From: Allobosea sp.
Lineage (GTDB): Bacteria; Pseudomonadota; Alphaproteobacteria; Rhizobiales; Beijerinckiaceae
NCBI RefSeq assembly: GCF_030695125.1
Contig: NZ_JAUYTP010000022.1
Span: 62,001 to 126,000 of the forward strand
DNA: 64,000 nucleotides
Direction of reading: 5' to 3'
Numbering within the stretch: the first letter of the stretch is position 1; each line of letters starts with the position of its first letter. Positions 8,789 to 44,798 of this stretch are shown here, one piece after another. Both the position numbers and the translations under genes were made by a program. A model generated the notes under the pieces. The model ran no database searches and was not told where the DNA came from. It saw only the letters and a program-made list of their open reading frames with translations.

Positions 8789-9856
8789 TCACGGGTTCGC
8801 CTGCGAGGCCTGTTTCTCCAGTTCGGCCCTGATGGTCGCGGTCGGCTCGCCGCGCGCCATCATCGCGGCCGCACGCTGGCCGTGGCGCGCGAGCCCGTGC
8901 CGCGTCTTGTCGGCGGCCGTCATCAGCACATGCAGTGGTTCGAAGCCTGTTGCCTGCAGCCGTCGCACATAGGCCAGCTGGCTTTCATAGGGAACGATCC
9001 GATCCTCGCGATCCGACAGAACGACGATCGACGGCCTGGGCTGCGTGGGGATGCGCCCGACATGGTCGATCGGATCGTGAAGGGCCTGGATGTTGGTGCT
9101 TTGAACGGTGCGCCGCTTGTCCCAGTGTCGCGTGACCTCACGGACGGACAGCAAGGCCGACGACAGCGCCGCGGCTGAAATGTCGTGGCGCCGGTTCAAG
9201 AGGGCCGCCGCGATCTGCCCGCCGCCGGACTGACCCGCCAGAATGAAACGCGAGACACCATAGCGATTCTTGATCGCGTTGAGCGCGCGGTCCATCAGCA
9301 TCACCTCACGCAACTCGCGGCGCGCGTTGTGGTCGCCCGACGATCCGTACATGCCCGGACGCGCCAGGAAGATGGTGGGACGCCCCGCCTCCCGGGACCA
9401 TCGCGCCATGTCGCGCTGGAGCCCATCGGGCGAGCGCCGCTCATAGCCGGGCGCGATGAAGCGAACGGCCGTTCTCGTCTTCAGCATCACGTCGCCGCTG
9501 AAATAGACCAGGACCACCGGATTTTCGGCTGAGTTCAACCCGTGCGAATAGGCGCGGATGCAATCGCCTTTGCCGTCGAATTCGACCCAGAAGCCGTCAG
9601 GCACGGTCAAACACTGGGCCGGTGAGCTGCGCGAGCCATGCAGCGCTTCGTAAGGATCGAACGGTTCTCCGGCACGCGGGATCGCGAGCTCTCTGGGCGT
9701 GGTCGGCGCCCCCGCCGGGAGTTCCAGCCTCTGCGCCAGAGCTGCCTGGGCCTGCCCGACCATCAAAACGGCGATGGCCCACCTTGATAGCCGCTGCATG
9801 TGCCAGCCCGACCTTCCAGTCACCGGCTCCAGCCGGCCGTTCAAACGCATCGGCAC
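8789..9856 (-). CDS. secreted alpha/beta-hydrolase
   Basis: signal peptide; nucleophile motif GQSGGG. Confidence 0.7.
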   Translation of the reverse strand: MPMRLNGRLEPVTGRSGWHMQRLSRWAIAVLMVGQAQAALAQRLELPAGAPTTPRELAIPRAGEPFDPYEALHGSRSSPAQCLTVPDGFWVEFDGKGDCIRAYSHGLNSAENPVVLVYFSGDVMLKTRTAVRFIAPGYERRSPDGLQRDMARWSREAGRPTIFLARPGMYGSSGDHNARRELREVMLMDRALNAIKNRYGVSRFILAGQSGGGQIAAALLNRRHDISAAALSSALLSVREVTRHWDKRRTVQSTNIQALHDPIDHVGRIPTQPRPSIVVLSDREDRIVPYESQLAYVRRLQATGFEPLHVLMTAADKTRHGLARHGQRAAAMMARGEPTATIRAELEKQASQANP

Positions 9857-37819: not shown

Positions 37820-37971
37820 CCTGTCTCCTTTCCTACGAAGCGGGCAGGGTGCGAGGGTAGCGGTTAACGAGGCGTGACCATGGCGGGCGGGTCTGGCTTG
37901 GCGCTCCCATGGGTGCCCAAGGGGCATGCCGGGGCGGGTCCGTCCGACCAGATGGCCTCACCCTCACTGCC

Positions 37972-38123
37972 GTCATCCCGGACAAGCCGCGTCAGCGGCG
38001 CCGATCCGGGATCCATTCCGGACCCTCTCGGAACCAGCGTTCCGGCATGGATCCCGGGTCTCCGCGGAGTTTATCCTTGGGCCGATCTTAGATCGGACCC
38101 GAGGGCTGCGCCCGGGATGACGG
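37972..38123. repeat. intergenic repeat, family B (long variant)
   Basis: gtcatcccggacaagc...gggatccattccgg...ccggcatggatcccggg...cccgggatgac. Confidence 0.7.
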
Positions 38124-38167
38124 CGAGGGGGAAGGGCACGGATAGGCCTCCTGAGCCGCCGCGCCGC

Positions 38168-38494: not shown

Positions 38495-38603
38495 GGATCG
38501 TCTCCCTTGCGGGGAGGGGGCGAGCGCCGGCCCCCGCCCGCTGTTGCAGCGTCGGTTTGCGAGAACGGGGCTGGCGGAGCGCCGCGAGGCGCGGGGTATA
38601 GAG

Positions 38604-38687
38604 GCCGCAACCGTTGAGCCAGGCTGCGGCGCGACAGGATTGAGCCACCCGTCGCACGCCCCCCGGCGCTCCGCCTTCGGCGTTTTT
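38604..38687 (+). ncRNA. candidate sRNA: two hairpins with near-identical loops plus terminator
   Basis: gccgcaacc[gttgagcca]ggctgcggc, gcgacagg[attgagcca]cccgtcgc, then acgcc...cgccttcggcgttttt. Confidence 0.4.
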
Positions 38688-39205
38688 CGTCTCCGGGCCG
38701 CGCTTATCGGGTCGAAGGCCGGCCATCGCCGCGAGCCCTTTCGACGCCAGTGCCCCTCATCGGGTTGTCGCGTCTATTTGGGCATGGGACGACGGCGTTT
38801 GCCGACGACCGTTCCAGCGAGCTCCTCGCACAGGGGCCGTAGTACCCCCAGGGCGGTGCCCCGAAACCTCCCGGGACTGGCGTGTGAAACCAGCCGCAGG
38901 CGCCGACCCTTCACCCAGCCACTGGCACACCTCCGGTTGGCCGCCCCGTTTGGGTGATGGGCGAGGGGAGTATGGGGGATGCGGGGAGGGCGGGGATAAG
39001 GTTGCGTGGGAACCGCGATGAGATTGGCACCGCATGTGACCAGTCACAGTTGACAGGGACCATGTTGCTTCAGTCTGCGTCTGCCATAGTACTCAAAAGC
39101 GAGCGTGGTCGATAATCAGCCAATTCAAAAAATGAATATCAATATTATTACAATAAAACGTATACACGTGAACAAATGATTTAGTTTTTTGATATTATTG
39201 TTTTA

Positions 39206-39853
39206 TTACCAGCCGAGAAGCATATCTGGCCTTAATGGACCAATAAAAGAGCTGCGCGATACTTTATCTGTCGCCGCTAAGGAATCGTATGACCTGCATA
39301 TAGCAAAATACGACCTCATAAATATTGGGCTATCTCGACTATTATGCATGATCAGCCCCCCTGTGCCGGCCCAATTTGGGTGGACCGCCTCGCATAGAAC
39401 GTTATAGATGTCAGATGCTTCGGGCATATGCTTGTCTAGAAACCTGATTCCATCAGCGACATGTGGCGATTTTATTCCTAGCTCTGTCTCGAATTCTCGA
39501 GATGCAAAGAAATGTTTTCTTAAAGTATTGCGAAATTTCTCTTTATCATTGGCGTTTCGCGCTCTAATCATCTTGTCGATAAAATCAATAAACGTCCCTG
39601 CTGTTTCCAGCAAGCCTCTTGCTGTCATACTTGCCGTTATCATGCGGCCACGTTCTAAACTTTCAATGCAATCTTCAGACAGCTCCAAAAGTCTGTTTAC
39701 TATAGATATAGAGTATTCCCTAATCGTTATACCGGAGGCTGAATGCTTATAAAATAATTTGTTAAGATCGAATCCCAGTTGGCGCACAATATCGATTTCA
39801 TGCAGCAGTTTGATTTTCATACTGTTTTCATTTAGATGATTTTGGTCAAACAA
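39206..39853 (-). CDS. helical protein, possible HEPN/DUF5677-like
   Basis: AT-rich 215-aa ORF overlapping the upstream gene by 8 bp; RNTLRKH (Rx5H) and YNVLCEAVHPNWAG motifs. Confidence 0.65.
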   Translation of the reverse strand: MFDQNHLNENSMKIKLLHEIDIVRQLGFDLNKLFYKHSASGITIREYSISIVNRLLELSEDCIESLERGRMITASMTARGLLETAGTFIDFIDKMIRARNANDKEKFRNTLRKHFFASREFETELGIKSPHVADGIRFLDKHMPEASDIYNVLCEAVHPNWAGTGGLIMHNSRDSPIFMRSYFAICRSYDSLAATDKVSRSSFIGPLRPDMLLGW

Positions 39854-41546
39854 TTTTGCTATCCCTATAAATCGCTATAAGCATATTATATGAAGCGACA
39901 TTACGCGCCGCCTTTAGTGTTGATCCGAATCCAGTCGTTGTATTATTTTTGTATTTGCAGACGACTTTGTGGTTTGGAGCATGCATGTTTTTGGTATCGG
40001 GATACGTCAAGAAATCAGGCTTTGCTCGGTCAGAAAATGATTGAGTAAATTCTTGAAGGATTTGAGAGTATGGAGCTTTATCATTAAAACGTGCGTTGAT
40101 ATCAATAAACGTCTCGATCTGCCCTGCAGATCTATCTCCAAGATCAAATTTTTTATTATAGTTTTCGAGGCTACTTTCAAAAATTGACTTTAGAAATTGA
40201 AAATTTTCTTCTGTTGAAACCACTGAATTAGCGTACATTAAACTCTGTATTATGTCGTGTAATTGTGCTTTGCTAATTTCATGATGTTTAATAAAAATTT
40301 GTTTCTCTCCAGCTTCTACGCAGTAAATCTCTCTGAGTTTATCTGTAGCGACCGGTACTCTGATGTTGTTGGGTGCGTTGCTTTGACAGGATAGGGCTAT
40401 TGCTGCTATAAATTGACTGCCAACTAATGCTGCGGTGCCGCTACAATGCGTACACGCGCCATTCTGATCATAGGTTGATGTCGTTGAGAAACAAGAAATT
40501 GTATCTTTATCGCTGACGTTCCATCGCAACTTATGGGTGTTAATCCAGGAACGCGCCTGCTTGACTTGTCTATCAGAGGGAACCCAACGTAATGCTGTAC
40601 AGCGTGTTTTGTTATAGTATTCGTTTATTCGTTTTTCTTGATACTTCCTAAATTGTGGCTGATTTAGGTCTTCCAGTTTGGATAGTATGGATTCCGCTAC
40701 AAGGACCGTTGCGGCTCGCTTTGAGCTACCAACTTCTTGTATCTCGCCGACCCCTGGGATCGATGTAGAAGCTTCAAATGCTGGGTCGTGCTCGGGGCGG
40801 CCCTCAATCTTTGTGACGACGTATGATGGTGTATTTCCAAAACAATCCTGAGTATATTCCTGCAAAAAAGTCTTTGGATCTCGTATAATTAAAATATCGT
40901 ACTCATATTTTGCTAAAGTGCCTACTGGATCGGCAGTGCGAATTATAAAATCCTCAATATCCGAGAAACTTGAACCGTTTATGTGTAGCGAATGAATAGT
41001 TTCGAAATATGCTCGAGAAAGATCTGACTCCGAGAATATATGATTTTGATCTGTGCAAATATTACCTAGATCGGATTTTTGCCAAACAGTTGCAATAAAA
41101 TCCAAGCGCCCAAGGTGGTTGCAGGCAAACGATCCGTGTTCTCTGCCTCTCGATAAAAAGAAACCCGATCGTATAAGTATTCTGAGAGTTAAGTAATTAT
41201 AGATCGACTTACCGGCCGAAGCGGTAGTTGAACTTATATTTTGATAGAAATGAGAAAATTCACTATCTATTTGCCCAGCTTCGTGTCCAATCAAAGAACT
41301 GTGTCGTATAGAATATATAAATTCATATTTTTTTGGTGCATTTATATAATGATTGACGCGTTGCGAAAAATAATCGCAGTAAATTTTGTGAGATTCAATC
41401 ATACTTACTATCGCAGCTAGTCGATTCTCCATCGCCGTGATCGACGCATCAAAACGCTCGATCTCGGAGGTATATATATCCCGAACGCGCGCTGACATTT
41501 CGGCGAGAACATGATTTAGCCGAAGTGTTGATAGTTCAAGGCTCAT
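39846..41546 (-). CDS. candidate tandem degenerate RNase III-like/dsRBD protein
   Basis: 566 aa; aa 223-293 resembles the E. coli RNase III dsRBD; aa 490-562 second dsRBD; aa 68-204 and 345-465 align by eye with RNase III domain; manual alignment only. Confidence 0.7.
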   Translation of the reverse strand: MSLELSTLRLNHVLAEMSARVRDIYTSEIERFDASITAMENRLAAIVSMIESHKIYCDYFSQRVNHYINAPKKYEFIYSIRHSSLIGHEAGQIDSEFSHFYQNISSTTASAGKSIYNYLTLRILIRSGFFLSRGREHGSFACNHLGRLDFIATVWQKSDLGNICTDQNHIFSESDLSRAYFETIHSLHINGSSFSDIEDFIIRTADPVGTLAKYEYDILIIRDPKTFLQEYTQDCFGNTPSYVVTKIEGRPEHDPAFEASTSIPGVGEIQEVGSSKRAATVLVAESILSKLEDLNQPQFRKYQEKRINEYYNKTRCTALRWVPSDRQVKQARSWINTHKLRWNVSDKDTISCFSTTSTYDQNGACTHCSGTAALVGSQFIAAIALSCQSNAPNNIRVPVATDKLREIYCVEAGEKQIFIKHHEISKAQLHDIIQSLMYANSVVSTEENFQFLKSIFESSLENYNKKFDLGDRSAGQIETFIDINARFNDKAPYSQILQEFTQSFSDRAKPDFLTYPDTKNMHAPNHKVVCKYKNNTTTGFGSTLKAARNVASYNMLIAIYRDSKIV

Positions 41547-41713
41547 GATTGATCAACGCATCTTTGACACGCGCAGATTACAGCAGGCAGGCGGTGCCAA
41601 TGCAAGCGATGATCAAAAAACTTTCAATTTGATGACGATTCGGGGTCGCCAAGGTCTTTTGCGGTACGCTGCCCATTGTTCGGAGTTCGTCGCCGTGGCG
41701 TGCCTCCCGAGCC

Positions 41714-41780: not shown

Positions 41781-44798
<3,018 letters not shown>

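Follow-up and report, generated by a model that had tools for sequence, protein, structure and literature searches.

The two genes described here lie on the minus strand of a 64,000-nt window, by which we mean the whole stretch of Allobosea sp. DNA that was analysed. Gene A (39846..41546) is a 566-aa ORF for a dsRNA-binding protein with an RNase III-like N-terminal half, and gene B (39206..39853) is a 215-aa ORF for a divergent DUF5677/HEPN-like putative effector. An earlier note on this DNA gave no strand. It did describe a 215-aa ORF that overlaps the upstream stop by 8 bp, and both details are borne out in the sequence: B starts with TTG and overlaps the TGA stop codon of A by 8 bp. A Shine-Dalgarno-type site (AGGGA, 39862-39866) precedes this TTG; an alternative in-frame ATG at 39820 would leave a 25-nt gap to A and has no purine-rich site. 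The translational coupling that the note implied is credible, because the B homologue of Leisingera sp. ANG1 likewise has a TTG start, with GGAGG ahead of it and a 4-bp overlap.

The pair occupies a low-GC segment (39040..41690) with a GC content of 0.37-0.50, compared with ~0.70 on both flanks. The drop in GC spans precisely A and B, and the segment is therefore a foreign two-gene insert directly 3' of uvrA (41781..44798, minus strand). Hence, the A-B pair was acquired horizontally. The 3' end of uvrA is one border of an insertion slot that is found across the genus, and the border opposite uvrA carries a multi-copy structured element of ~430 bp (38565..39006, plus strand). Promoter and terminator counts in the region were not above those of shuffles, and an Rfam scan of the region found no family. 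A second dispersed repeat, short (~60-150 bp), is present at 37959-38126 of the window and has dozens of copies in two genomes (G604 and G539).

Protein A: dsRBDs and an RNase III-like half

The dsRNA-binding partner that the earlier note had assigned to B was recovered by Pfam: PF00035 matches A at 45.1 bits (cut-off 23; E = 1.5e-11), in two copies, with domain E-values of 5e-20 and 5e-5 by a local model. Both copies are significant in the window protein and in its Leisingera counterpart. dsRBD1 (residues 222-292; 40671..40883, minus strand) keeps the canonical RNA contacts, with a T-x-LQE helix, H253 in a PEH loop, and SKR at 275-277 on the second helix. dsRBD2 (residues 495-556; 39879..40064, minus strand), detected by PF00035 and by the local model, is the more degenerate of the two.

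We compared the region ahead of dsRBD1 with an RNase III domain profile derived from 24 genomic sequences of this enzyme. Residues ~77-208 of A (40923..41318, minus strand) align with this domain from end to end, with an hhalign score of 33.0 (P ~2e-4, probability 46%); the reversed control scored 15.8, and the best of 200 column shuffles reached 24.6. In the Leisingera A protein, TIGR02191 covers residues 203-324, running from the dsRBD into the RNase III-like domain. These profile matches indicate that dsRBD1 of A derives from an RNase III-dsRBD and that an RNase III domain is the most likely origin of the N-terminal half. The predicted structure of A, made from a two-sequence alignment, has a pLDDT of 37 and is unusable, so the case for RNase III ancestry is one built from sequence profiles.

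The carboxylates of RNase III bind its catalytic metals. In the profile alignment, all four (E38, D45, D114, and E117, E. coli numbering) are replaced in both A proteins, by Q/R, K/K, R/K, and F/K, respectively (window/Leisingera). A should therefore bind dsRNA without cutting it, as a presumably dead RNase III-like scaffold. The middle region (residues 300-480; 40107..40649, minus strand) is without a recognised domain; tandem RNase III domains were considered for A and rejected, as this region carries no RNase III signal (score 11.9).

Protein B and its conserved residues

The Pfam model of DUF5677 (PF18928) matches B at 18.8 bits (E = 0.0018), under its gathering score of 27.1 bits. Profile-profile comparison is far stronger: the window and Leisingera B proteins together match a profile built from eight genome-derived DUF5677 proteins with a probability of 95.3% and an E-value of 2e-8 over residues 54-170, at a score of 58, whereas 100 column shuffles reached no more than 18. 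This match covers both conserved helices. We conclude from these profiles that B is a divergent DUF5677 member, and the likeness to this family that the earlier note had claimed thus gains support. B and the DUF5677 sequences that we read have a common signature, R-x3-E in helix 2 followed later by S/C-x3-H. In B, its counterparts are R79 and E83 (39605..39619, minus strand; from a five-sequence alignment and the profile comparison) and C154...H158, the histidine falling ~75 residues after R-x3-E. H158 lies at the end of a later helix, in the string CEAVHPNW, within a conserved segment, YNVLCEAVHPNW (39371..39406, minus strand), that also holds Y150, E155, and P159.

The earlier note had placed a HEPN active site elsewhere, at RNTLRKH (R108-H114; 39512..39532, minus strand), and had likened two further segments, TARGLLETAGTFIDFID and YNVLCEAVHPNWAG, to DUF5677/HEPN proteins. 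All three strings are present in B as claimed, and the latter two hold the conserved R79, E83, Y150, L153, E155, H158, and P159. The proposed active site did not survive. A R[NDH]x3-5H pattern arises in 24% of composition shuffles of B and any Rx4-6H in 86%; neither R108 nor H114 is invariant in the five-sequence alignment; and the Leisingera homologue is without any Rx4-6H, with a tyrosine at the position of H114. RNTLRKH is thus a chance-level motif that homologues do not conserve. The H158 segment, rather than R108-H114, is the real candidate for an active or functional site of B.

Whether B is a HEPN protein was approached from several sides. No arginine stands 5-7 residues ahead of H158, so B lacks a conserved Rx4-6H. 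A survey of HEPN proteins places their histidine at the end of helix 3 and an acidic residue in helix 2, and describes families that keep the histidine without the arginine (PMC3710099). The predicted model of B is helical and of low confidence (mean pLDDT 59.7; core helices 70-82); in it, E83 lies within helix 71-100 and H158 just after helix 146-157. These positions fit the HEPN layout and make membership of B in the HEPN superfamily plausible. The profile of DUF4145, a recognised HEPN family, gave a weak signal with B (score 26.0, compared with at most 19.6 in shuffles), and DUF5677 and DUF4145 compared directly gave no signal. A Foldseek search of the PDB with the low-confidence model returned no significant match; the highest-probability hit, 2q00 (0.44, not significant), is a HEPN protein that lacks the arginine. 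We regard B as a putative RNase.

Distribution of the pair and cargo of the uvrA slot

Searching 84,980 species genomes with B gave a single clear relative, 36% identical over 110 residues, from Leisingera sp. ANG1. Directly upstream of it, with a 4-bp overlap, lies a 594-aa homologue of A. Gene order and overlap are therefore common to the window and a distant genome, at 23%-36% identity, and the Leisingera pair is likewise low in GC (~0.47-0.49 vs ~0.6). The co-occurrence of the two genes to which the earlier note looked is thus seen again, in two genomes in all. No further A-B pair came out of profile searches of 398 genomes of the order, 385 of the class, and, with the N-terminal region of A as query, 399 from across the phylum; another 66 genomes of the genus likewise lack it. 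A search of 240 genomes of the class with full-length A matched chromosomal rnc genes alone, through dsRBD1. Because these genome and profile searches gave two genomes alone, from different lineages, the pair is rare and patchy. No dsRBD gene adjoins the remote relatives of B (L034-L036 and L129/L130) in the flanking sequence examined; for L044 and L045, the ORF list alone was inspected. A plasmid search found no relatives beyond the dsRBDs of RNase III, and a search of viral contigs found none of the pair. A phage origin was rejected on this ground; the lone phage-record match, MT835512, proved to be a standard RNase III.

Adjacent to the Leisingera pair are a P-loop ATPase gene (L002:10761-12767) that weakly resembles SspF (E = 7e-4) and an ORF (9092-9772) that resembles a phage tail assembly protein by eye and has no Pfam match. 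With such neighbours, the Leisingera pair, too, may belong to a region of mobile or defence genes.

Across 42 genomes of this genus, we surveyed the sequence that follows the 3' end of uvrA. Low-GC cargo, scored as a GC content below 0.60 in the adjacent 1.2 kb, is present in 34 of these slots; each holds between one gene and a few, and the genes vary among species. PADLOC models were run on 22 slots, mostly with one protein per slot, and 10 gave a match at 1e-8 or better, a raw count without matched background. Among the matches are a complete Olokun system (L060:4050-7642; OloA, 5.5e-107; OloB, 2e-207), Lamassu LmuB in another species (L070:5623-9094; 9e-189), a type II methyltransferase (9e-276), and PD-Lambda-2 B (4e-67). 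Matches to AriA/PARIS, Dsr1, DpdB, a Gabija helicase, and two restriction enzymes are weaker or partial; those to Olokun, Lamassu, and the methyltransferase run over the full length and are specific. Pfam domains among the cargo include SIR2, NACHT, TIR, reverse transcriptase, ABC-3C, DndB, and Mrr. The site of A-B is thus a defence hotspot throughout the genus.

Some of the slot cargo has no recognised defence family. Slots without a PADLOC match at 1e-8 are L059 (4039-6454), L066, L067, L072, L075, L080, L085, L088, L095, L096, L102, and L105, and we regard their cargo as uncharacterised defence candidates. A protein encoded in one of them (L059:4039-4848) contains RRNIAAHPS, which resembles the HEPN R-N-x3-H motif. 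PADLOC matched no system to A and B (best E-values 0.025-0.035) or to the Leisingera pair; the PD-T4-7 and PDC-M09A matches of the window pair (E ~0.03) were judged to be noise.

The structured element accompanies the cargo, being present in 32 of the 34 occupied slots vs 1 of the 8 unoccupied ones. Copies were located in L059-L105, L132, and L134-L140. Six genomes searched have 3-9 matches each, some of which are fragments of one copy, and low-GC DNA lies on the same side, within ~1.2 kb, at 8 of 10 further copies with enough flank. Twenty-nine copies align at a mean identity of 80%. In their consensus fold, 98.4% of cells are paired, compared with 44%-54% when the alignment is slid by 1-3 columns, and 40 cells are compensatory, compared with 11.6 in shuffles. 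No Rfam family matched. Possible identities are a structured RNA and a structured site of recombination, perhaps novel in either case, that would belong to a mobile (defence) cassette. Its last 80-110 bp occur twice in direct orientation around a ~1-kb module in L060 (2592-3904) and also in L073 and L101; such duplicated ends would suit a serial addition of cassettes. Elsewhere, the element has as neighbours a 791-aa ORF that is SIR2-like by sequence (L136) and, also by sequence, a 299-aa D12-type methyltransferase-like ORF with a large 781-aa partner (L137).

Proposed function and comparison with known systems

The case for an immune role of A-B comes mainly from the slot that it shares with known anti-phage systems. 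We tentatively favour, at somewhat below even confidence, a mobile, translationally coupled immune module made of a dsRNA sensor and an effector. A would be the dsRNA-binding sensor or adaptor, with two dsRBDs on a dead RNase III-like scaffold, and would bind structured or viral dsRNA without cleavage. B, a DUF5677 (HEPN-like) effector, would be held by A and then released or activated once A has bound dsRNA in the course of a phage infection; active B would stop the infection or the cell, perhaps by cleaving RNA with H158 as a key residue. The defence role, a physical A-B complex, the dsRNA trigger, and the nuclease nature of B are what we infer here, and it is the domain type that suggests dsRNA as the trigger. 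dsRNA is a classic viral alarm signal in animals. Rather more doubtful is the full form of the proposal, in which a dead RNase III/dsRBD receptor senses dsRNA and fires a DUF5677 effector with an R-less HEPN-like site, as an equivalent in bacteria of the way PKR or OAS-RNase L senses dsRNA. The literature that we searched, with incomplete coverage, held no description of a dsRBD-based phage sensor in bacteria.

The earlier note had offered a sensor-effector or a toxin-antitoxin pair. The uvrA slot supplies a defence setting; toxin-antitoxin is not specifically indicated. As a toxin, B would inhibit growth, as an RNase or otherwise, and A would be its antitoxin, in a stabilising or phage-responsive pair whose dsRBDs autoregulate on their own mRNA. 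Two overlapping genes in a mobile low-GC insert would suit this, and HEPN-like toxins are common in such pairs (PMC3710099), but A lies upstream of B and is large for an antitoxin (566 aa, three RNA-related modules), and domain searches of A and B found no toxin motif and no antitoxin fold; we consider this explanation unlikely. A defence module might instead have an effector whose target is not RNA, e.g., the membrane, nucleotides, or a phage protein, with B a DUF5677 helical bundle without nuclease activity. The Rx4-6H arginine is missing from B and from the DUF5677 sequences read, the HEPN fold is plausible at most, and no structural match is significant; yet H158 and R79-x3-E83 are strictly kept, as in the HEPN families that retain the histidine and lack the arginine (PMC3710099), and such an effector seems to us rather doubtful.

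It is very unlikely, in our judgement, that A and B are phage-derived or regulatory RNA-processing genes, such as RNase III modulators, carried as neutral cargo without a defence role. An RNase III-like scaffold, an occurrence in two genomes only, and the presence in the slot of some cargo without a recognised defence family would agree with this, but the slot is enriched for immune genes, phage contigs hold no relatives, and the pair is conserved at low identity and is thus under selection. If the pair acts as the immune module that we favour, protecting against phage and needing dsRNA binding to do so, it would show dsRNA sensing in a simple bacterial form, made out of a dead RNase III, and would give DUF5677 a function. 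For this genus, the uvrA slot also offers a ready list of other uncharacterised candidates for defence genes.

The systems found in this slot in congeners, Olokun and Lamassu among them, have the insertion site in common with A-B, but their proteins are unrelated. B has the R-x3-E helix and S/C-x3-H motif of DUF5677 (PF18928), but a dsRBD gene adjoins B and not the four remote relatives examined (L034-L036 and L130). R-less HEPN families (PaREP1/8, PDB 2q00; c2405; PMC3710099) resemble B in the histidine at a helix end and the acidic residue in helix 2; they differ in operon context and give no significant sequence or structure match. Compared with RNase III (TIGR02191) and the dsRBD family (PF00035), A lacks all four carboxylates and has dsRBD2 and a middle region in addition. 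Among published architectures, the closest are the cyanobacterial HEPN-RNase III-dsRBD fusions (Lyngbya gi 119489560), which Anantharaman et al. (2013, PMC3710099) describe as a two-headed active RNase, together with the animal CXorf38 proteins, which are HEPN-dsRBD fusions (PMC3710099). The cyanobacterial fusion brings together a HEPN-type domain, RNase III, and a dsRBD, a combination of which A-B would have putative counterparts. It does so in one polypeptide with both nuclease domains predicted to be active, whereas A-B consists of two genes with an apparently dead RNase III-like part, an extra second dsRBD, and a DUF5677 partner without Rx4-6H. A-B thus follows a known HEPN/RNase III/dsRBD theme; what is new is the split into two genes, the presumably dead RNase III-like part, the two dsRBDs, and the R-less DUF5677 partner.
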